Origin: Halobacterium salinarum DSM 3754
GTDB lineage: Archaea > Halobacteriota > Halobacteria > Halobacteriales > Halobacteriaceae
Direction of reading: 5' to 3'
Length of the DNA stretch: 64,000 nucleotides
Assembly (NCBI RefSeq): GCF_008124605.1
Contig: NZ_VRYN01000001.1
Span: 670,772 to 734,771, forward strand
The translations under genes were made by a program, and so were the position numbers. Under the pieces are notes generated by a model. The model ran no database searches. It had not been told where the DNA came from and saw only the letters and a list, made by a program, of their open reading frames with translations. Position 1 is the stretch's first letter; each line of letters opens with the position of its first letter. This document shows, one piece after another, positions 4,846-20,972 of the stretch.

Positions 4846-6183
4846 TTACTCGTGGGACCGGTCGGCGAGCGTGTCGGCGACCGAGTCGTACTCCGAATCG
4901 TGGCGGTGGCAGTAGCTCAGCCGGCCGGCGTCACTGACCTGGTGCATGTCGGGGCGCTCGGTGTCACAGACGCCGCCGAACTCCCGTGTGAGGGCGTCGT
5001 GTGCCTCGGTTGGACGGCCGTCTTTGACTGCTTCGATGGCGGTGTCAACGGTGTCAGTGATTCCCGCTGGGAGGTCGACGTCCGCGAACAGGTCGTCGGC
5101 GGCCTCCTCGATGTCGTCGTACTTCGAGAACGTGCCCAAGCGACGTTTCACGCGGTCACGAACCCCCATCTGGTCGCGGGTGCGCTCACGCACGACCTCG
5201 CGGAACTGCTCGATGCGACTCCACGTGTCGTCGTCGATGTCGGCGTACGCCTCGGGCCGGATCTTCGCCGGGCACCGGGTGCTGAACTGACACCCCGCCG
5301 GCGGGTTGCGGGGACTGGGCGGGGCACCGGGAAGCGTGATTCGGTTCCGGTCGATGGTGGGGTCGGGCCGTGGGATCGCGGACAACAACGACCGCGTGTA
5401 GGGGTTTTTCGCGTCGGCGTACAGCTCCTCCGTCTCGCCGATCTCCATGATCTTGCCGAGATACATGACTGCGACGCGGTCGCAGATGTGACGCACGACC
5501 GAGAGGTCGTGGGCGATGAACAGGTACGTAAGCCCGAACTCGTCTTGGAGGTCCTCCAAGAGGTTGAGGATCTTCGCCTGCACGGAGGCGTCGAGCGCGC
5601 TCACCGGTTCGTCGAGGACCATGAACTCCGGCTCCAAGGCGAGTGCGCGTGCGATGCCGATGCGCTGGCGTTGCCCGCCGGAGAACTGGTGGGGATACCG
5701 GTAGTAGTGGTCCGCCTGGAGGCCGACTGAGGACAACAGCTCCTTGACGCGGTCCCGGCGCTCGGCGGGTGAGTTCCAGTCGTGGGCGTCCAGGGGCTCG
5801 CGCACGATCTCACCGATGGTCATGCGGTCGTTGAGGCTTGAATCCGGGTCCTGGAAGACGATCTGGGCGTTCTTGCGCCACTGCTTGAGGTCGCTGCCGG
5901 TGAGCTTCGTGATGTCCCGGCCGTCGAAGGAGACGGTGCCCTCGGTCGCGGTTTCGAGCTGGATGAGCGTGCGCCCCAGGGTCGTCTTCCCGGAGCCGGA
6001 CTCACCCACCAGCCCGAGGGTCTCGCCCTCCTGGATCTCGAAGTTCACGCCGTCGACGGCCTTGACCGGCGGGCCGCTGAACCGGCCGCCGTCGCCGTAG
6101 TGTTTTTTGAGGTCGGTGACCTCCACGAGTGGCTGGCTGTGCTGGTCGGCGTCCGCGGTCGACTGGATCGATTGCTGGCTCAT
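4846..6183 (-). CDS. dppF: Dipeptide/oligopeptide ABC transporter ATPase (DppF type)
   Basis: This is a cytoplasmic ATPase that powers peptide import. Walker A is GESGSGKT, the ABC signature is [15 protein letters not shown], and Walker B is [12 protein letters not shown]. The oligopeptide-transporter C-terminal motif GCQFSTRCP is present. An acidic helical insert of roughly 100 residues separates that Cys pair from the final Cys pair ([15 protein letters not shown]), making the protein 445 aa against about 330 in bacterial DppF. ATG 6183 overlaps the stop of the preceding ATPase gene (ATGA), so the two ATPases are probably made together and form a heterodimer. It is the distal transporter gene of the operon. 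Confidence 0.92.
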
Positions 6184-7268
6184 TCCTGGGCACCTCCTTG
6201 TGTGTCGGCGGGGGCCTGCGAGCGGTGGTGTTCGACGCGCTCGGTGCGCGATTTCCCCTCGGGGTACAGCAGGCACGCCGTCGAGTGGTCGTGGGTGTCG
6301 GACACCGAGACGTGTGTCGGATGAACCTCGGTGCAGTCCTCGAACGCCTTGGGACACCGGGGGGCGAACCGGCAGTCGGTCGCGGGCTGGTTGGGCGTCG
6401 GCACGTCGCCCTCGATGGTGTTGAGCCGCTCGTCGTCGACGCTCGTTCCCGGGATGGCGTCCAACAGGCCCTGCGTGTACGGATGTTTGGGGTTTGCGAA
6501 CAGCTCTTCGACCGGTGCCTTCTCGACGAACTCGCCGGCGTACATCACGTTGACGCGGTCGCTGATCTCCGCGATGACGCCCATGTCGTGGGTGATAAAG
6601 AGGATCGCCAGGTCACGCTCGGCCTGGATGTCCTGGAGGAGTTCGACGATCTGGGCCTGGATCGTCACGTCGAGTGCGGTCGTGGGTTCGTCGCAGATGA
6701 GCACGTCGGGGTCGCACGCGAGCATCATCGCGATCACTGCGCGCTGTCGCATCCCCCCGGAGAACTCGTTGGGGTACTCGTCGAGTCGCCGCTCGGGGTC
6801 GGGGATCGCGACGTCTTCGAGCAGGTCGATGGCGACGTCCGTGGCCTCCTGGCCGGTGATCCCGCGGTTGATCCGGAGGGCCTCCCGGATCTGGTTGCCC
6901 ACCGTGTAGACGGGGTTCAGGGATTTCAGTGGGTCCTGGAAGATCATGCCGACGCCGCTCCCGCGGACCTCCTGGTACTGGTCGGCGCTGAGCTCCGTGA
7001 GCTCGGTGCCGTCGAAGACGATCGAGGACTCCGGGAGGACTTCGCCCGGCGCGTCGACCAGCCCCATGATCGACCGCGCAGTGACGCTTTTCCCGGAGCC
7101 GGATTCGCCGACGATCCCGAGCGTTTCGCCGGGCGAAATCGACAGCGAGATCCCGTCAACGGCGCGGATGTGTTCGTGGTCCGTCCGGAAGACCGTCTGT
7201 AGGTTCCGGATGGACAGGATCGATTCGCCCCGCGGGTCGTCGTCGGCTGTCGGTGTCGTGGATTGCAT
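6180..7268 (-). CDS. dppD: Dipeptide/oligopeptide ABC transporter ATPase (DppD type)
   Basis: This is the partner ATPase of the peptide importer (362 aa). Walker A GESGSGKS, signature [15 protein letters not shown], Walker [13 protein letters not shown] and the switch histidine ILFITHDMG are all intact. The C-terminal Cys motif [15 protein letters not shown] is of normal length, unlike the extended DppF beside it. The start codon directly follows the stop of the permease gene (TAG then ATG), and the 3' end overlaps dppF by four bases. Pairing of a D-type and an F-type ATPase is standard for this family. Confidence 0.93.
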
Positions 7269-8849
7269 CTATGCACCACCTCCGGTGGCCGCAGCTTCTT
7301 CCTCGGAGCCGCCTTCGCTCTCGGGGTCGATCGCGTCACGGATGCCGTCCCCGAGCGCGTTCGCTCCGGTGACCAGGACGACGATGATCAGGCCGGGAAT
7401 GAGGGCGATGTGCCACGACGCCGACGACACGTAGGGCTGCCCCTGGGAGATGGCGCGGCCCCACGCGGGCGTCGGCGGCGTGATCCCGAGTCCGTTGCCG
7501 AGGAACGACAGGGACGCCATCGCGATGACGATGCCGCCCACGGTCATGGACGCGTAGATCAACAGATACCCCAGCACGTACGGCAGCATGTGTTTTCGCA
7601 TCGTGACCGTGGGTTGCTGGCCGAAGCTCTTCGCGGCGTCAACCCACTCTTCTTCGGCGACCTGCAACGCCGGGCCACGGAGCGAACGCCACAGGACCGG
7701 CCACGTCGTCAGCCCGAACACCAGCGCTAACAGCAGCCCGCCGTTGAACACGGACTTGAGCCAGTGGTCCTGGAACACGACACTGACCATGATCAACAAC
7801 AACAGCTGGGGGATCGAGACGATCCCGTCGGCGAGCGTCAGCACGGAGAGGTCCACCGTCCCCCCGTAGTACGACGACACCAACGCCAGCAGCGCGGCGA
7901 TGAACCCCGCCATCCCGATGGCGATACCCGTCACCATCAGCGTGGTTTCGGCACCACCCATCATATACGTGAACAGGTCACGGCCGTTGGGGAGCGTGCC
8001 GAACGGATGGAACCGCCCGTAGTCGTCGTACGTCATGACACCCACGTTCTGTGCGGGGTTGCCCTTTGATTTCGAGTTGAAGTTCGCTTCCCCGACGGGG
8101 ATCGTCTCCACGGCGCCGGTGTCGTCCGAGACGTACTGGACCTCGTTGCCGTACGAGGCGGTGATGTTCTGCTGAACCGTCGAGGGCGCGAGCGTCGTTC
8201 CGAACAGCGACATCGTGAGGAACAACACCAGGACGACGATCCCGAACTTCCCCCAGGAGTGGTTGCGGAGCCGATTGACCATGTCGTCGCGGGGCGTCCA
8301 GCCGGCTCTGCGGTAGTGGGTGCGGAACGTGAGCCAGCCGCGGTACAGCCAGTAGAAGGTGAACAGCGAGTACGCGAGTGTCAACGCCATCCGGATCGCC
8401 CACGCGGCGGCGGGCGACAGTCCCAAAAACGGCCCGGTCCAGGCGTTGTACGACAATCCCAGGAACGACCGCACGGTCGAGGGGTCGTTGTACCCCTGGT
8501 TGGGAATGACATCGCGGCTGAGAAGCGTCGGGAGGCTCTGTGCCGTCGACCGAACGCCCTCGATGAACGTGCTGAGCGCCAGTTGGACGTCGACGACTCG
8601 GCCGGCCAACGCCGGTGAAACCAGTCCGACGATGACATCGATGAGACCGGTGACACCCATGACGAGGGCGTCAACGAGCGTGAGGATTCCGCCGGTAAGA
8701 GCACCCAGCTCCAGTACGACCAGCACTGCAGCGACGACACCCCATCGGAGGGCCGGCTGGGGGTTGGTGCGGATGCGGGTCCAGAGACCGTCGGTGCTGC
8801 GGCGTGTGGTGTCTCGTGTGTCGTCTGCGTGAGTGGTGTTTGCGGCCAT
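7269..8849 (-). CDS. dppC: Peptide ABC transporter permease (DppC type) with long N-terminal extension
   Basis: The C-terminal half is a standard DppC permease. It has the periplasmic entry FHPFGTLPNGRDLFTYMMGG, several membrane spans, and a coupling helix (EEEWVDAAKSFGQQPTVTMRKHMLP). The first roughly 230 residues are unusual: several extra hydrophobic segments (residues about 35-100 and 145-170) and a basic loop precede the normal first span. The total is 526 aa against about 300 in bacteria. It follows dppB by four bases and touches dppD. The extension may be a lineage feature of haloarchaeal importers; its job is unknown. Confidence 0.9.
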   Translation of the reverse strand: MAANTTHADDTRDTTRRSTDGLWTRIRTNPQPALRWGVVAAVLVVLELGALTGGILTLVDALVMGVTGLIDVIVGLVSPALAGRVVDVQLALSTFIEGVRSTAQSLPTLLSRDVIPNQGYNDPSTVRSFLGLSYNAWTGPFLGLSPAAAWAIRMALTLAYSLFTFYWLYRGWLTFRTHYRRAGWTPRDDMVNRLRNHSWGKFGIVVLVLFLTMSLFGTTLAPSTVQQNITASYGNEVQYVSDDTGAVETIPVGEANFNSKSKGNPAQNVGVMTYDDYGRFHPFGTLPNGRDLFTYMMGGAETTLMVTGIAIGMAGFIAALLALVSSYYGGTVDLSVLTLADGIVSIPQLLLLIMVSVVFQDHWLKSVFNGGLLLALVFGLTTWPVLWRSLRGPALQVAEEEWVDAAKSFGQQPTVTMRKHMLPYVLGYLLIYASMTVGGIVIAMASLSFLGNGLGITPPTPAWGRAISQGQPYVSSASWHIALIPGLIIVVLVTGANALGDGIRDAIDPESEGGSEEEAAATGGGA

Positions 8850-8853
8850 TGTG

Positions 8854-9945
8854 TTACTCGGTCGTGTCTGACAGCGTGATTCGCGGATCGATGTACGTGT
8901 ACAGCACGTCCTGGAGGAGGTTGAACAGGATCTGCATGAGGATGAAGATGAACACCAGCGACATCATCACCGGGATGTCGGAGTTGAACGCGGCGCGGAT
9001 GAAGAGGTTCCCGATCCCGTTGATGCTGAAGACCTTCTCGACGAGAACGGAGCCGCCGATGAGCAAGTAGAACTCGCCCATGATGACCGGGAGCAGCGGA
9101 ATGACCGCGTTTCGGCCGATGTGTTTCACGATGATGCGTCGCGGGGAGACGCCTTTGGCTTTCGCGGTGTCGACGTATTCGGACCGGAGGCTTTCGAGGA
9201 CGGCAGTCCGGCCGATGCGGACTTCGTTACCCATCGATGAGGACCCGAGAACGAGCGCGGCCGGCAGGATCCACTTGAACGCTTCGGCCATCGGGCCGAG
9301 GTTCGGAACGGGGATCCAGAAGAACTCCAAGACGGGCACGCCGGCGAACGGGTCGATCCCCGAGAACAGGTGTTGGAGCGCGTTCGAGGTGCCGACAACG
9401 TCGGTTTTGATGAGGAAATCACCGTAGCCATCGAGCACGCCGCCGGCCGTGAGCAGCCCGGACAGCATCACTGCCAGCCAGAAGTTCGGCATCGCACGCC
9501 AAACGATTCCCCCGAAGGAGGCCGCGTAATCGCTCCACGAGTTGGAGTTGAGGCCCGCGTACAGGCCGACCGGAATGCCGACGAAAAGCGCAACCAGCAC
9601 TGACCAGAAGCCGAGCCAGATGGTTGCGGGCAGGCGGCCGACGATCATGGCGGCCACGGGCTGGTCTCGGGCGATCGCCCAGGACGTCCCGAAGTCGAAC
9701 GTCACCATGTTGACGAGGAAGTTCTTGTACTGCACCCACAGTGGAACGAGGCTGCCGTTGGGGTATCGGATCCCCAGGGAGATCTCCAGGTTGCGGGCGG
9801 CGGTTGGGGTTGCGTCCTTCCCGAGGATGGCGAGGACGGGATCGATCGGCCCCAGGTACAGGATCAGGAAGGTGAGTGTGAGACCGAACAGGAGGACCGG
9901 GACACCGAGAAGTAACCGCTTCGCGATGTATAGTGGTCGGTTCAT
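8854..9945 (-). CDS. dppB: Peptide ABC transporter permease (DppB type)
   Basis: This 363-residue membrane subunit starts MNRPLYIAKRLLLGVPVLLFGLT, the usual DppB first span. It has about six spans and the EAA-type coupling loop (YVDTAKAKGVSPRRIIVKHIGRNA) that docks onto the ATPases. It ends in YTYIDPRITL, the hallmark YxxxDPRI of this family. It lies second in the operon, 131 bases after the binding-protein gene. That gap holds a T-rich terminator-like tract, so expression may be lower than that of the binding protein. Confidence 0.93.
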   Translation of the reverse strand: MNRPLYIAKRLLLGVPVLLFGLTLTFLILYLGPIDPVLAILGKDATPTAARNLEISLGIRYPNGSLVPLWVQYKNFLVNMVTFDFGTSWAIARDQPVAAMIVGRLPATIWLGFWSVLVALFVGIPVGLYAGLNSNSWSDYAASFGGIVWRAMPNFWLAVMLSGLLTAGGVLDGYGDFLIKTDVVGTSNALQHLFSGIDPFAGVPVLEFFWIPVPNLGPMAEAFKWILPAALVLGSSSMGNEVRIGRTAVLESLRSEYVDTAKAKGVSPRRIIVKHIGRNAVIPLLPVIMGEFYLLIGGSVLVEKVFSINGIGNLFIRAAFNSDIPVMMSLVFIFILMQILFNLLQDVLYTYIDPRITLSDTTE

Positions 9946-10076: not shown

Positions 10077-11948
10077 TTACTCGCCCTGGTAATGGTTGTT
10101 GTACCCCTCCTGGCCGTCACTGAACAGCTGTGGCGGCTGCAGGTGGAAGGCACCGACACCACGGCCCTTGAACACGTCCGAGACGAACTGCTCGCGGTTG
10201 ATCACGTACGCCATCGCCTTGCGCACCGGCTTCGGGACCTTGGTCATGTTGAAGCCGACGTAGTACGTGTCGATCGTCGAAACCGACGAGGAGTTCACCG
10301 TCTTGTCGTTCTCCATGGGGCCGTAGGTGCCGAGCTTGCGGCCACCGGGGAGCGTCTCACCGCTGGAATGCAGTGATGGATCGTATTTCGAGGTCGGGAT
10401 GCCGGCGAGGTCGGCGTTCTCGTTCAGGAAGTAGTTGTATCGTGCCGTGTCGTCCGAGATGATGGTGTCGTCGATGCCGTCGATCGCCGGCGCGCCGTCG
10501 TGGTAGTCCTCGAAGGCATCCGCGGAGTACGACCCGCCGTTGCCGGAGTCCCACTCCACGAACGTGAACGGACCGGTGCCGACCGGGTTCGACGCGGAGA
10601 ACTCCGGATACGGCATGTCGCCCTCGTAGCCCTCGATGTCACCGACGATCCCCTCCGGAACCACGGAGAACGCACCGTACGTTAGCACGTCGAGGGCGTA
10701 CGGGAACGGCGATTCGAGTGTGAGACGAACCGTGTAGTCGTCGACAGCTTCGACGCCGGTGGCGCGTTTGACTGCGCCGTTCTCGTCGACCTCGTGTTCG
10801 ATGCCCAGCGTGGAGATGGCGAACGACTGGTTGGTGGAGTTCGTCGACTCCGCCAGCCGACGGATCGAGTACACGACGTCGTCGGCGGTCATCTCGCCGT
10901 AGTCGCCGTGGAACTGCACGCCCTCCTTGAACGTGAGCGTGTACTCGGAGAGGTCGTCGTTGGTCTCGTAGTCGGTGATGAGGAGGTTCGTGATCTCCGT
11001 CCGACCGTTCTCGTAGTTGGTCGGCGCGTCGAACAGGTCCATCACCTTGGCCCCGCTTGCGGTGTTGCCGGAGGCGACCGGGTCCAGAGAGTTGAACGTG
11101 GACGAAATGCCGCTCAACCGGCCTTTCCCGTCGATGCCGGCGACAGCATTGTTCGTCTTCTGTTTCGAGGAGTCCATCGCGCCGGGTGGGTTGTAGTCGA
11201 GCCGGTCGTACCAGAAGGATTGGGCGAGGTTGTGGTACACCGGAATGAGGGCAGCCGACTCCCAGATCCCTTCTTCCATGTTGGTTGCGGCGTCCTTCCG
11301 AGTTTGGATCGCGTCCTCTGATTGGCCGGGGTTGCTGACGAGCCGCTCGTACTGTTCGGTCATGAACTCCCGAACGCCGGGATCGGAGTTGGCGTCCTCC
11401 TTCCAGTAGAGGCGTGCGCCGTTGGCCGCGGTTTCGCCGCCGTAGATCGTGTTGTCCGGCTGAACGAGCTGCATGAAGTTCCGCGGCCGCGGATAGTCGG
11501 CAACCCATCCGAGGGTGAACGCCTCGTGCTCGCCCTGCTTGGTGGTTTCAAGCAGCGACGAGAAGTTGGCGTCGTTGATCGTCATTTCGATGTGGGCCTG
11601 TTCGAGCCGGGCGCGGATGGTGTTCGCCATCTCCTTCCACGTCGGGCTCTGGTACTGGAGCCAGTTGAGCTCGTACTTGTTGTCGGGGCCGTAGCCGGCC
11701 TCCTCCATGACCTTGCGCGCTTCCGCGACTTTCGTCTCGTCGATCCCGTAGGGGTATTTGTCGAAGTCGGGCTGGTAGTCGGTGCTTTCGCCGGTGGTCG
11801 TTGGCGCGTCAGTCGGCTCGCTGCCGCCGCTGCCATCGGCGTCGCTGGTGCTGTCGCTGCAGCCAGCGACGGTGGCAGTGAGGGCTGCCGCGCCCGTGGC
11901 TTTCAGGAACCGACGACGACTCGTGTTGGACATGCCGTCACCTGTCAT
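10077..11948 (-). CDS. dppA: Peptide-binding lipoprotein, circularly permuted DppA
   Basis: This is the extracellular substrate-binding protein of the peptide importer. The N-terminus has a Tat motif (SRRRFLK) and lipobox TVAGC (Cys30), followed by a Thr/Asp-rich linker. The lobes are in inverted order. Residues about 58-258 carry what is normally the C-terminal lobe: YGIDETKVAEARKVMEEAG, QGEHEAFTLGWVADYP, ALIPVYHN. Residues about 276-623 carry the normal N-terminal start and core: STFNSLDPVASGNT, GVQFHGDYGEMTADDVVYS, NPVGTGPF, VRKAMAYVINRE. The protein then stops at NNHYQGE, exactly where the first segment would normally continue. No frameshift is seen. ATG 11948 lies about 28 bases from a CTTAAGTA box, fitting a leaderless start. 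ATG 11933 (MSNTSRRR), preceded by GGTGA, is the alternative. Confidence 0.9.
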   Translation of the reverse strand: MTGDGMSNTSRRRFLKATGAAALTATVAGCSDSTSDADGSGGSEPTDAPTTTGESTDYQPDFDKYPYGIDETKVAEARKVMEEAGYGPDNKYELNWLQYQSPTWKEMANTIRARLEQAHIEMTINDANFSSLLETTKQGEHEAFTLGWVADYPRPRNFMQLVQPDNTIYGGETAANGARLYWKEDANSDPGVREFMTEQYERLVSNPGQSEDAIQTRKDAATNMEEGIWESAALIPVYHNLAQSFWYDRLDYNPPGAMDSSKQKTNNAVAGIDGKGRLSGISSTFNSLDPVASGNTASGAKVMDLFDAPTNYENGRTEITNLLITDYETNDDLSEYTLTFKEGVQFHGDYGEMTADDVVYSIRRLAESTNSTNQSFAISTLGIEHEVDENGAVKRATGVEAVDDYTVRLTLESPFPYALDVLTYGAFSVVPEGIVGDIEGYEGDMPYPEFSASNPVGTGPFTFVEWDSGNGGSYSADAFEDYHDGAPAIDGIDDTIISDDTARYNYFLNENADLAGIPTSKYDPSLHSSGETLPGGRKLGTYGPMENDKTVNSSSVSTIDTYYVGFNMTKVPKPVRKAMAYVINREQFVSDVFKGRGVGAFHLQPPQLFSDGQEGYNNHYQGE

Positions 11949-12258
11949 GGTCATAGGTGACAATAGCATGTACTTAAGCTCTTCGTCAAGTCCGCGCGAT
12001 CGTGGTCGATGTAACGCGACTAGCGCGTGGAAACTGTGTGCACGCGTACGCATACCGAGAGTGGCGATACCAGCGGCCGACACGACAGCTTCGTGATTGG
12101 TGTACGCACTGTCTCGTGTTGTGCGTGCGCGCTGTGCGTCGGCGTGGCGGTCGCCGCGGTCGGCCTGCGGTGGCTCCGTGGATCGTCAGCGTAGACCCGT
12201 GAGTCGGTGACGCAAGCTGTCGTAGCCTACAAATGGGTGGGGCAAGTACGACGCCCAC
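11949..12258. promoter_or_regulatory. Divergent promoter region between dppA and the CBS gene
   Basis: This 310-base stretch holds no convincing gene. Near dppA is a minus-strand CTTAAGTA box at 11972-11979. Near the CBS gene is a CCTACAAATG box at 12226-12235, centred about 28 bases before the ATG at 12259. The roughly 240 bases between them show no clear repeat, hairpin or RNA gene. Confidence 0.6.
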
Positions 12259-18003: not shown

Positions 18004-19965
18004 ATGGCAAATAGAGACACGCATGCGAGACCATCACGACCAAACACGGATCAGTCCACCAGCGAGGCGCACTCGCGGCGACGGGTGCTGAAAGCGCTCG
18101 GCGCGACCGGGGTTGCGGCGGGCGTCGCGGGCTGTCTGGGCGGCGGCAGCGACGACTCGGCGGCGACCGCGACCAGCGAGGAGACGTCGTCGCCGGACAC
18201 CGAGACGCTGCAACCCGAAAACATCCCGCGAGGTGGGACGTTCAAGGTGGCAACGACGTCGACGACGAACGGCTTGAACGCGTTCCGGATCGGTGACGGA
18301 GAGACCTCCGCTCGCGTCGAGGCAGTGATGGATGCGGGGTTCTCGCGGACCGGGGAGGCGTACGAGGACATCCTGCCGCTGTGGTTCGAGGACTTCTCGG
18401 TGTCCGAGCCCGTCGACCAGATCGAGATCACGCTCCGGGACAACCTCGAATACGGCAACGGCTACGGGGAGTTGACCGCCGACGACTACCTCTGGAACGT
18501 CAACAACCTCTGGCGGCCGGACTGGACGGCGTTCACCTACAGTCACCTGTTCAACGTCGGGGCTGACAACACCCCGATCACGTTCGAGAAAGTCGACAAG
18601 TACACGATCCGAGAGACGATCCCGGAGCCGCGACCGTTTTTCCCGTACAACGAGCCCCTCGGCGGGATGTTCCCGATCCCGAAAGCGCTCGCGAAGCCGT
18701 ACGTCGAGGCCGAGGACGCCGACGGCCTCGAACAGGACGAGGAGGTGATGCGGGCTGCGTTCAACGGCAACCTCGGGCTGTGGGACCTCAAGCGCTGGTC
18801 CCAGCAGTCGGTCATGGCCTTCGAGCGGGCTGAGGACTACTACCTCCGGAAGTGGGCGAAACGCGACGATCGCGTGCCCGAGGTGATGGCGAACGCGCCG
18901 TATTTCGATGAGTACCACGTGCAGTACTTCAACAAAGCGAGTACGGCTCGTGAAGCGCTGAAAGGCGGGGAGATAGACCGAGTGAGTATCCCCTCCACGG
19001 ACGTCCCGGAGTTCCGCGACCAGGGCGGTATCGAACTGTATAAGAACCCGTACCGGTCGTGGTCCGGGTATCTGGGGATCAACCACCGTGCGAACGGCTG
19101 GACGCAGCTCCGGAACAAGAAGGTCCGGCACGCGATGGCGCACATCTATCACAACGAGTTCATCGTCGAGAACATCCTCAACGGGCGGGCCGGCGTCCAG
19201 AACACGCTCCATCCGACCTGGGGGCCGTACGCGACCGAGAACCTCACGACGTTCTCGGGGTCGCTGGACGAAGCGCGCCGCCTCCTCAAGGAGGGCACCT
19301 CGAATGACTACGGGTACAGCGGCGACACCTTCGTTGGACCGGACGGCAACCAGGTCGAGTTGACCATCGTCTACCAGTCCGGGCAGACCGACGACCTGCG
19401 GGCGGCCTACCTGAAAAAGCGCCTCGGGAAGGTCGGCATCAAGCTGAACCAGGAAACGACGTCGTGGCCGAACCTGATGAGTAACTACTTCAAAACGACG
19501 GAGACGGCACCAGGCTTCTCGGGGGAGCCCGGATACGGCGACGAGAACAGGCAGCCGTCCGACTACAACCGCGGCCCACAGGACGAAGCGGTGTCGGCCC
19601 AGCCGTGGGACTTCATGCTCACACTCGGCTTCGACTATGGACCGAACACGCCCGCCCAGACGATCACGAACCTCTTCGGCACCGAACAGTCGTTCAACTC
19701 CTACGGCTATGCGCCGGATAGAGACCTCGCCGGAATGCGTGATGCGGCCCAGACGGCTGCGAGTCGCGACGCCGCGAAGGCGAAGATCACGGAGATGCTG
19801 GAGTACCTCTCCGAGGAGCGGCCGGTGATCTTCGAGTACAACCCGTACAACTTCTACGCGTACAACGACAGCGTCGAGAACATTCCGGACAGCCCCGCAA
19901 ACGACTACTACGTCGAAGAGCGGTATTCGGAGATGTACTTCTCCGACGGAGCCAGCGGCCGCTAA
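18004..19965 (+). CDS. Peptide/nickel-family ABC binding lipoprotein
   Basis: This is the substrate-binding protein of the second peptide-type importer (653 aa). It has a Tat signal (SRRRVLKALG) and lipobox VAGC with a glycine-rich linker. Lobe order is conventional: the start strand GGTFKVATTST, ELTADDYLWNVNNL, the domain III region KVRHAMAHIYHNEFIVENIL, KKRLGKVGIKLNQETTSW and a C-terminal VIFEYNPYNFYAYN. That contrasts with the permuted protein of the operon at 10-12 kb. ATG 18004 is supported by the TATA box at 17971. The ligand cannot be told from sequence; a peptide or related solute is likely. Confidence 0.9.
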   Translation: MANRDTHARPSRPNTDQSTSEAHSRRRVLKALGATGVAAGVAGCLGGGSDDSAATATSEETSSPDTETLQPENIPRGGTFKVATTSTTNGLNAFRIGDGETSARVEAVMDAGFSRTGEAYEDILPLWFEDFSVSEPVDQIEITLRDNLEYGNGYGELTADDYLWNVNNLWRPDWTAFTYSHLFNVGADNTPITFEKVDKYTIRETIPEPRPFFPYNEPLGGMFPIPKALAKPYVEAEDADGLEQDEEVMRAAFNGNLGLWDLKRWSQQSVMAFERAEDYYLRKWAKRDDRVPEVMANAPYFDEYHVQYFNKASTAREALKGGEIDRVSIPSTDVPEFRDQGGIELYKNPYRSWSGYLGINHRANGWTQLRNKKVRHAMAHIYHNEFIVENILNGRAGVQNTLHPTWGPYATENLTTFSGSLDEARRLLKEGTSNDYGYSGDTFVGPDGNQVELTIVYQSGQTDDLRAAYLKKRLGKVGIKLNQETTSWPNLMSNYFKTTETAPGFSGEPGYGDENRQPSDYNRGPQDEAVSAQPWDFMLTLGFDYGPNTPAQTITNLFGTEQSFNSYGYAPDRDLAGMRDAAQTAASRDAAKAKITEMLEYLSEERPVIFEYNPYNFYAYNDSVENIPDSPANDYYVEERYSEMYFSDGASGR

Positions 19966-19991: not shown

Positions 19992-20972
19992 ATGAAATGG
20001 TACATCGTGAAACGCGTGCTCTGGACGTTCGTGGTGATGTGGATCGCGTTGACCCTGACGTTCGGGCTGCTCGTCGCGTCGCCGGACACCGGACAGACGA
20101 AGTCGGTGATGAGTTGTTCGGCGTCGGGCGGCGACGCACAGCAGTGCAGAGAACAGTACCGTGAACGGCAGAACCTGGACAAACCCATCACCGAGCGGTA
20201 CGTCAACTACGTGACGAACATGGCGACGCTGAACTGGGGGTGGTCCGAATCCCGGTCGCAGTCGGTGATGGCGGCGATCTCGGAGGCGTGGCCGTACACC
20301 GCCCAGTACGCCATTCCCGTGCTCGTGGTGTCGACGATACTCGGGTACGGACTGGGGCTGTATTCGGCGTACAAGCCGTACACGAAGGCGGACTACCTGG
20401 GATCGTTCGTCGGGTTTTTCGGCATCAGTATTCCGAACTTCTGGTTCGCGCTCGTGCTCATCATCCTGTTAGGAACGCACTTCGAGTTCATCTCGACGTA
20501 CTACCAGAGCGGCATCCCGATAAACCAGGGGTGGGCCTCGATGGCGAACATCACACAGCTCCTGATACCGAGTTTCGTCCTGCTCACGGCCTCGCTGGCG
20601 TGGCAGATGCGGTACTCTCGGGCGCAGGCCATCGAGCAGATGAACCAGGAGTTCGTGAAGGTCGCGAAGGCGAAGGGGGCCAGCCAGTGGCGGCTCATGA
20701 TACACCACGTCTTCCGGATGGCCGCGGTGCCGCTGACGACGAGTTTCGTCAGCAGCCTGCTGGCCATCTTCTGGTCGGGGTCGGTCATCATCGAGCAGAT
20801 CTTCTCCATTCCCGGGCTGGGGTTGATGACGTTCACCGCGATCACCGAGCAGGACACGACGCTCGTGCTCGCAACCACGATGATCACCGTCTTCCTGGCG
20901 ATCATCGGGAACCTCATCGAGGACGTGTCGTACACCATCCTTGACCCACGGATCGACTACGGTGATCGGTAG
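19992..20972 (+). CDS. Peptide-type ABC permease (DppB type)
   Basis: This 326-residue permease starts MKWYIVKRVLWTFVVMWIALTLTFGLL and has six predicted spans. The coupling loop is FVKVAKAKGASQWRLMIHHVFRMA and the end YTILDPRIDYG, all typical of DppB. It follows the binding protein by 26 bases and precedes the second permease by one base, so it lies in a tight five-gene importer operon. Confidence 0.92.
   Translation: MKWYIVKRVLWTFVVMWIALTLTFGLLVASPDTGQTKSVMSCSASGGDAQQCREQYRERQNLDKPITERYVNYVTNMATLNWGWSESRSQSVMAAISEAWPYTAQYAIPVLVVSTILGYGLGLYSAYKPYTKADYLGSFVGFFGISIPNFWFALVLIILLGTHFEFISTYYQSGIPINQGWASMANITQLLIPSFVLLTASLAWQMRYSRAQAIEQMNQEFVKVAKAKGASQWRLMIHHVFRMAAVPLTTSFVSSLLAIFWSGSVIIEQIFSIPGLGLMTFTAITEQDTTLVLATTMITVFLAIIGNLIEDVSYTILDPRIDYGDR

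Follow-up and report, generated by a model that had tools for sequence, protein, structure and literature searches.

The reversed lobes of a DppA-like lipoprotein

A gene on the minus strand of a 64,000-nucleotide stretch of Halobacterium salinarum DSM 3754 DNA (the window; features in Table 1) raises the question whether a peptide-binding lipoprotein can carry its C-terminal lobe in front of its N-terminal lobe, and whether this order is natural and inherited. The first-pass annotation of this DNA had claimed that the C-terminal lobe comes first and the normal mature N-terminus follows, and that the two-piece coverage by a profile, C-part and then N-part, would serve as a check. Such coverage is seen with the Pfam profile SBP_bac_5 (PF00496), which matches the protein with 198 bits (cut-off 32.4) in two stretches of reversed order, profile positions 238-360 lying upstream of positions 2-262; the remaining two SBP_bac_5 genes of the same genome give one collinear match each. 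When the protein was searched against the PDB with phmmer, residues 20-318 of E. coli DppA (1dpp) aligned to its residues 287-607 and DppA residues 318-417 to its residues 54-155. Pfam, the PDB matches and the orthologs described below thus agree on the order, and the protein, which does not meet the canonical succession of N-lobe and C-lobe, is a permuted variant rather than a conventional member of PF00496. It was not filed as an E. coli-type DppA equivalog because its score on the NCBIfam model NF043070 (93.5 bits) is below the curated cut-off of 1005; a conventional haloarchaeal relative scores just 102 bits on this model.

The single intact reading frame claimed for the gene was borne out: the minus-strand frame begins with an ATG at 11948 or 11933 and runs, without internal stops, as far as the stop codon 10077-10079. 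The breakpoints first proposed were about right, except that the joint between the native ends lies at residues 255-285 (DNA 11171-11079), slightly downstream of 11175. The twin-arginine signal (RRR...LTATVAGC) ends in a lipobox cysteine, as in Tat lipoproteins, lipidation being inferred, and two cognate permeases and two ATPases adjoin the gene, the operon setting expected of an SBP_bac_5 protein. The TATA-like element upstream is a possible, weakly supported leaderless promoter of the permuted dppA. About 6 kb from the permuted gene, at 18004-19965 of the plus strand, the window encodes a second, distant SBP_bac_5 lipoprotein of conventional order, with a permease-like gene at 19992.

Table 1. 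The permuted gene, its parts and its neighbours in the window.
Feature	Position	Strand	Basis and remarks
Type A circularly permuted DppA-like lipoprotein gene	10077-11948	-	618-623 aa; single frame, orthologs, Pfam and PDB matches
Tat signal and lipobox (MSNTSRRRFLKATGAAALTATVAGC)	11859-11933	-	sequence; TIGR01409 TAT_signal above cut-off
Flexible low-complexity linker, residues 26-53	11775-11858	-	pLDDT <50 over residues 1-51; similar linker length in every type
C-terminal lobe segment in first place, residues 54-254 (E. coli DppA from ~318 onward)	11172-11774	-	PDB sequence match, reversed Pfam order
Joint of native C-terminus and native mature N-terminus, residues 255-285; predicted beta-hairpin	11079-11171	-	AlphaFold, sequence
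Native mature N-terminal segment in last place, residues 286-618 (E. coli DppA 1-324)	10080-11078	-	PDB sequence match, superposition
TATA-like CTTAAGTA, ~25-30 bases upstream of ATG 11948	11971-11978	-	sequence only, weak
Permease DppB	8854-9945	-	PF00528 and PF19300; conserved neighbour; 131 bases downstream of permuted gene
Permease DppC	7269-8849	-	PF00528
DppD-like ATPase	6180-7268	-	ORF with ABC ATPase motifs; conserved neighbour
DppF-like ATPase	4846-6183	-	ORF with ABC ATPase motifs; conserved neighbour

The rotated order is inherited

Full-length collinear orthologs of the protein, whose order we call type A, are present in two other Halobacterium genomes (G012, 69% identity; G011, 68%), and in a survey of 392 genomes of the order about two dozen further proteins align uninterrupted to residues 2-617, most of them with 57-64% identity. 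Such agreement goes far beyond chance. Inspection of orthologs in Halobacterium, proposed in the first-pass annotation as a check, gave a divided answer: G012 and G011 are permuted, whereas nine of the remaining species have conventional homologs only (G002 has another arrangement), but these homologs come from a different branch of the family in a tree of 82 rows. When codons were compared with G012 and G011, third positions were found to change most, in both lobes and in the joint. On the strength of this pattern and of the full-length orthologs, the permuted gene is inherited and under purifying selection. Since the order is shared by about 30 orthologs and is seen in dozens of genomes of haloarchaea, type A is not an assembly error, and neither such an error nor conventional orthologs, which were to have refuted the permutation, can be invoked. 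A natural circular permutant presents a complete ring in rotated order, in a single chain, and is inherited; the protein meets all three points, and its agreement in order with these orthologs upholds the claim of a natural permutation that leaves the export signal at the front, for which sequence comparison confirms the order.

Predicted structure

The suggested structure prediction returned a single DppA-like fold (AlphaFold, pLDDT 88.6, pTM 0.85), disordered in the signal and linker only, from an alignment of 57 rows of which 28 were conventional pieces. Residues 271-617 of the model (P0001) superpose on 1dpp 1-324 with Z 23.4 and an rmsd of 2.9 over 300 residues. A type C protein (L048; this order is defined below) was predicted from 34 rows of type C only with pLDDT 86.8, disorder being found mainly in signal and linker, and its residues 135-608 superpose on 1dpp 1-441 with Z 25.8. 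Z values of 23-26 to DppA, OppA and MppA over about 300 residues place these models within the DppA/OppA fold, so far as prediction goes. The C-lobe part (residues 54-254) was matched by sequence and not by a sequential structure aligner: Foldseek and VIA align in sequence order and, given a permuted chain, mostly pick up a single block, so that a missing full-length match is no evidence. By prediction alone, then, the permuted chain would fold like its unpermuted DppA-like relatives. In the model the joint forms a pair of strands, and the cut lies in a loop before helix 69-78 and after helix 607-613; the new termini had been expected in the hinge-side helix of domain III, but the cut falls in the loop between these two helices.

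Four orders of the same ring

Rotations of any kind were sought by writing the mature chain as a ring and searching with doubled copies of it, so that every rotation appears as one collinear match whose start reveals the order. Four orders were found among distinct proteins: conventional (136), A (30), B (3) and C (36). Type A starts at ring position ~347, which follows residue ~324 of E. coli DppA. The three type B proteins, L013, L089 and L248, start at ~118-123, in a loop that we place in domain II of the DppA structure. The 36 type C proteins start mostly at ~465-470, after DppA ~441. Counted from tables for families f1, f4, f5, f8 and f17 (492 genomes), the doubled ring yields ~290 conventional genes and, by approximate count, 38 of type A, 3 of type B and 54 of type C; families f6 and f7 were seen in part only, and bacteria were outside the permutation scan. 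For family f17 (28 genomes), none of the ~60 genes listed is rotated, a result that also serves as a control, showing that the doubled ring does not invent rotations.

The cuts are clean, with the ring complete and almost no residues lost or duplicated, and the native ends are joined almost without a seam, as a comparison of type C L265 with the conventional L157, its sister, illustrates. Within clades of many species the order stays the same. Further orders were suspected in genomes whose first scores were weak, but these proved conventional, except for cases already counted. A contig scan for further relatives brought up only distant homologs, conventional and mostly bacterial, and in a plasmid collection matches were to the N-lobe only, as expected for conventional relatives (Halorussus and others).

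The GWxxD aspartate, which in OppA/DppA structures binds the peptide amino group, is present in 30 of 30 type A proteins and in 33 of 33 when types A and B are taken together. In the main type C clade the motif reads GWxxS in 32 of 34 proteins (e.g. L048), and the substrate of this clade may possibly differ or have changed.

The order has changed repeatedly

For the binding-protein tree, proteins were cut into four segments that no rotation interrupts, brought into a common order and concatenated, and 43 representatives were analysed under an IQ-TREE mixture model. This tree requires eight order changes, as does a quick tree of 82 rows: A arises once, B three times (once from within clade A) and C three times, and there is one probable switch from C to conventional. 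The type B protein L248 is nested in clade A and 70-72% identical to proteins of that type; of the other two B proteins, L089 has the conventional L068 as its sister and L013 stands alone. Two type C proteins, L066 and L265, are sisters to the conventional L185 and L157, respectively, and the conventional L259 falls within the main C clade, beside type C congeners. In 200 bootstrap trees, one origin was never seen for A (without L248), B or C. AU tests rejected uniting the three B proteins (p 9e-5), a single origin of L013 and L089 (p 0.0017), a single origin of all C (p 2e-6), A without the nested L248 (p 1e-69) and all permuted proteins together (p 2e-6); exclusion of L259 from C was rejected more weakly (p 0.03), and the switch from C to conventional is accordingly graded as probable and only moderately supported. 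Groups A, B and C were defined by order, independently of the tree, whereas L013+L089 and the main C group were picked after seeing the tree, which makes their p values less strict. Six of the switches (L013, L089, L248, L066, L265, L259) rest on one genome each, and L265 comes from a fragmented assembly (a 5.1-kb contig).

Across the types, the binding-protein gene occupies the same place upstream of dppB-dppC-dppD/F, and dppB follows it in most loci. As a permutation cannot disturb the alignment of DppB, a tree of this permease is an independent check; it gives nine order changes, and L248, L089, L066, L265 and L259 are placed as in the binding-protein tree. One type A protein, L204, stands beside conventional proteins in the DppB tree (support 94) and is grouped with A in the binding-protein tree (support 99/98), so a second origin of A is left open by the former and unsupported by the latter. 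As judged from the trees, rotations have been fixed repeatedly, by some seven or more independent switches that involve three loops; the type A order is inferred to have arisen once, in the ancestor of the type A clade. That the conventional order is ancestral rests on solved and distant relatives being conventional.

Cut sites, tether and a proposed route

Local length variance was calculated along the ring from a non-redundant set of 68 conventional proteins. Its three highest peaks, at positions 464, 110 and 340, coincided with the C, B and A cut loops (ranks 1, 2 and 3). New ends thus arise at loops in which insertions and deletions are already tolerated by the family, and the cut loops agree with the general finding that viable permutation sites are exposed, less conserved loops (PMC3281007). 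The median length of the linker is 33 residues in conventional proteins, 35 in A, 33 in B and 29.5 in C.

Our reading, in which we have considerable confidence, is that the gene encodes a working lipid-tethered Venus-flytrap peptide-binding protein for a DppBCDF importer, its mature domain rotated behind an unchanged Tat signal, lipobox and linker. Peptide uptake is inferred from the operon and the motif, and there are no expression, binding or transport data. The native ends are fused through the short joint, and the new ends would be exposed in a domain III loop at the surface; fold and ligand cleft would be kept, and only the point at which the membrane tether leaves the fold would have moved. 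We further infer that native ends lying close together would make fusion easy, and that a flexible lipid tether of ~33 residues would leave the protein nearly indifferent to where it is attached, so that rotations survive.

The classical route to a circular permutation is tandem duplication and fusion, followed by trimming. At the DNA level, rotations may have come about in this way, the front and back copies being trimmed. The flanks of all permuted genes yielded neither a doubled, fused gene as an intermediate nor any convincing remnant of a duplicate. Weak flank matches near L063 and L133 were considered as leftovers and look like separate distant binding proteins. In G002, a relic of a conventional dppA (L014/L167, G002:C1:332337-332783, minus strand) retains the signal and the first ~137 residues, ending in VEATGEYE and a stop near the type B cut. 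It was rejected as a type B intermediate: it belongs to another branch and has no meaningful DNA similarity to the type B gene elsewhere in G002.

Alternative explanations

An artefact of assembly or sequencing, or misjoined contigs, has nothing in its favour beyond the odd order itself. It is already refuted for type A, where the same order recurs in about 30 genomes of several families with both halves equally conserved, and the single-genome B and C cases lie mostly on complete or near-complete chromosomes (contigs of 4.70 Mb in G401, 2.75 Mb in G153, 4.13 Mb in G306 and 3.51 Mb in G296); we give it practically no weight. Domain shuffling, with halves drawn from different genes, was raised by the authors of the TpMglB-2 study for that protein, whose moved part is poorly conserved (PMC4990184). 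Here, by contrast, in every recent switch the two pieces match one and the same sister about equally well (L265/L157 72 and 67%; L248/L022 72 and 70%; L089/L068 63 and 65%; L066/L185 66 and 71%; L259/L134 69 and 64%) and the ring is complete without overlap, which leaves a chimera very improbable. A dedicated DNA rearrangement activity that rotates the gene as programmed variation might account for recurrence at three sites only and for the lack of decayed intermediates, but the sites are explained by tolerance of insertions and deletions (without a systematic search of the surroundings for recombinase genes or inverted repeats), and orders are stable in clades of many species, with none rotated among the f17 genes listed. 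Such an activity seems extremely improbable to us.

Whether selection favours permutants is harder to settle. A moved tether could alter the contact of the binding protein with the S-layer, permease or export machinery, or with a virus, and repeated fixation in tethered proteins would fit; permuted relatives of TpMglB-2 are mostly tethered, and adaptation to anchoring has been suggested for them (PMC4990184). The main C clade, having lost the GWxxD aspartate, may have changed order and substrate together, but types A and B retain this residue throughout. The switches also have no common direction (conventional to B, A to B, probably C to conventional), and linker length hardly differs between orders. 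We regard adaptive switching as unlikely, though not to be dismissed, and retain the rotation of one gene behind an unchanged tether as the preferred reading. Only tentatively, and without being persuaded of it, do we raise the idea that permutation in haloarchaeal DppA may be ongoing and reversible, with four states switching on the time scale of genera and possibly selected by tether position.

Relation to known permuted binding proteins

E. coli DppA and OppA (cluster C, PF00496; 1dpp, 1ola) resemble the window protein in the homology of the mature chain, in predicted fold and in their DppBCDF partners. Compared with E. coli DppA, the window protein is rotated, with DppA's first 324 residues placed last, and its N-terminal lipid tether would leave domain III rather than domain I. 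Conventional DppA-like proteins of Haladaptataceae (e.g. Halorussus) are members of the same subfamily, with 41-47% identity to the N-lobe part, and differ in their conventional order.

Natural circular permutations are usually regarded as single old events between distant proteins, with untraceable steps. In haloarchaeal DppA four orders coexist in related proteins of the same operon, sister pairs are 63-72% identical across a switch, and there is an independent permease tree; one can therefore ask how rotations happen, which loops permit them, whether they are reversible and how much the position of the tether matters. In Treponema pallidum, the naturally permuted TpMglB-2 (Tp0684; 'Type Ic/Cluster Bc') is likewise a tethered ABC binding lipoprotein and still binds ligand (PMC4990184), but it is a cluster B sugar binder with one permutation, and a poorly conserved moved part, and recurrence has not been shown for it. 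Among glycine betaine-binding proteins, 2b4l, 1r9l and 1sw1 are circularly permuted relative to each other (PMC2395249) and, like haloarchaeal DppA, show permutation within binding proteins of one substrate class; they share <24% identity and their permutation was found by structure, whereas the haloarchaeal orders differ at 63-72% identity. In the open-access literature we met with no description of permuted binding proteins of family 5, nor of a permutation in any haloarchaeal transporter, and with no permutation of binding proteins, natural examples of which are known, reported to be as recurrent. The advance is that switches recur between closely related proteins, among them one from A to B and probably one from C to conventional. 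For annotation, these proteins carry a warning: in profile searches, permuted proteins appear as partial or split matches.

Observations at individual type C loci

Three type C loci have features of their own. In G545, the new C-terminus of the type C protein (L264 2006-4159) bears a low-complexity tail of ~50 residues with GNETGGNET repeats, like N-terminal linkers. In G211, a type C binding protein is part of a 965-residue ORF (L059 2794-5691, G211:C1) that also encodes a protein-kinase-like domain and a transmembrane-like stretch; the kinase-like domain scores 24.6 bits on Pfam Pkinase (cut-off 31.7), its NCBIfam kinase matches are below cut-off, and no dppB was found beside this ORF. In G144, a second, distantly related binding-protein gene (L133 2241-3485, minus strand) stands in divergent orientation beside the type C gene.
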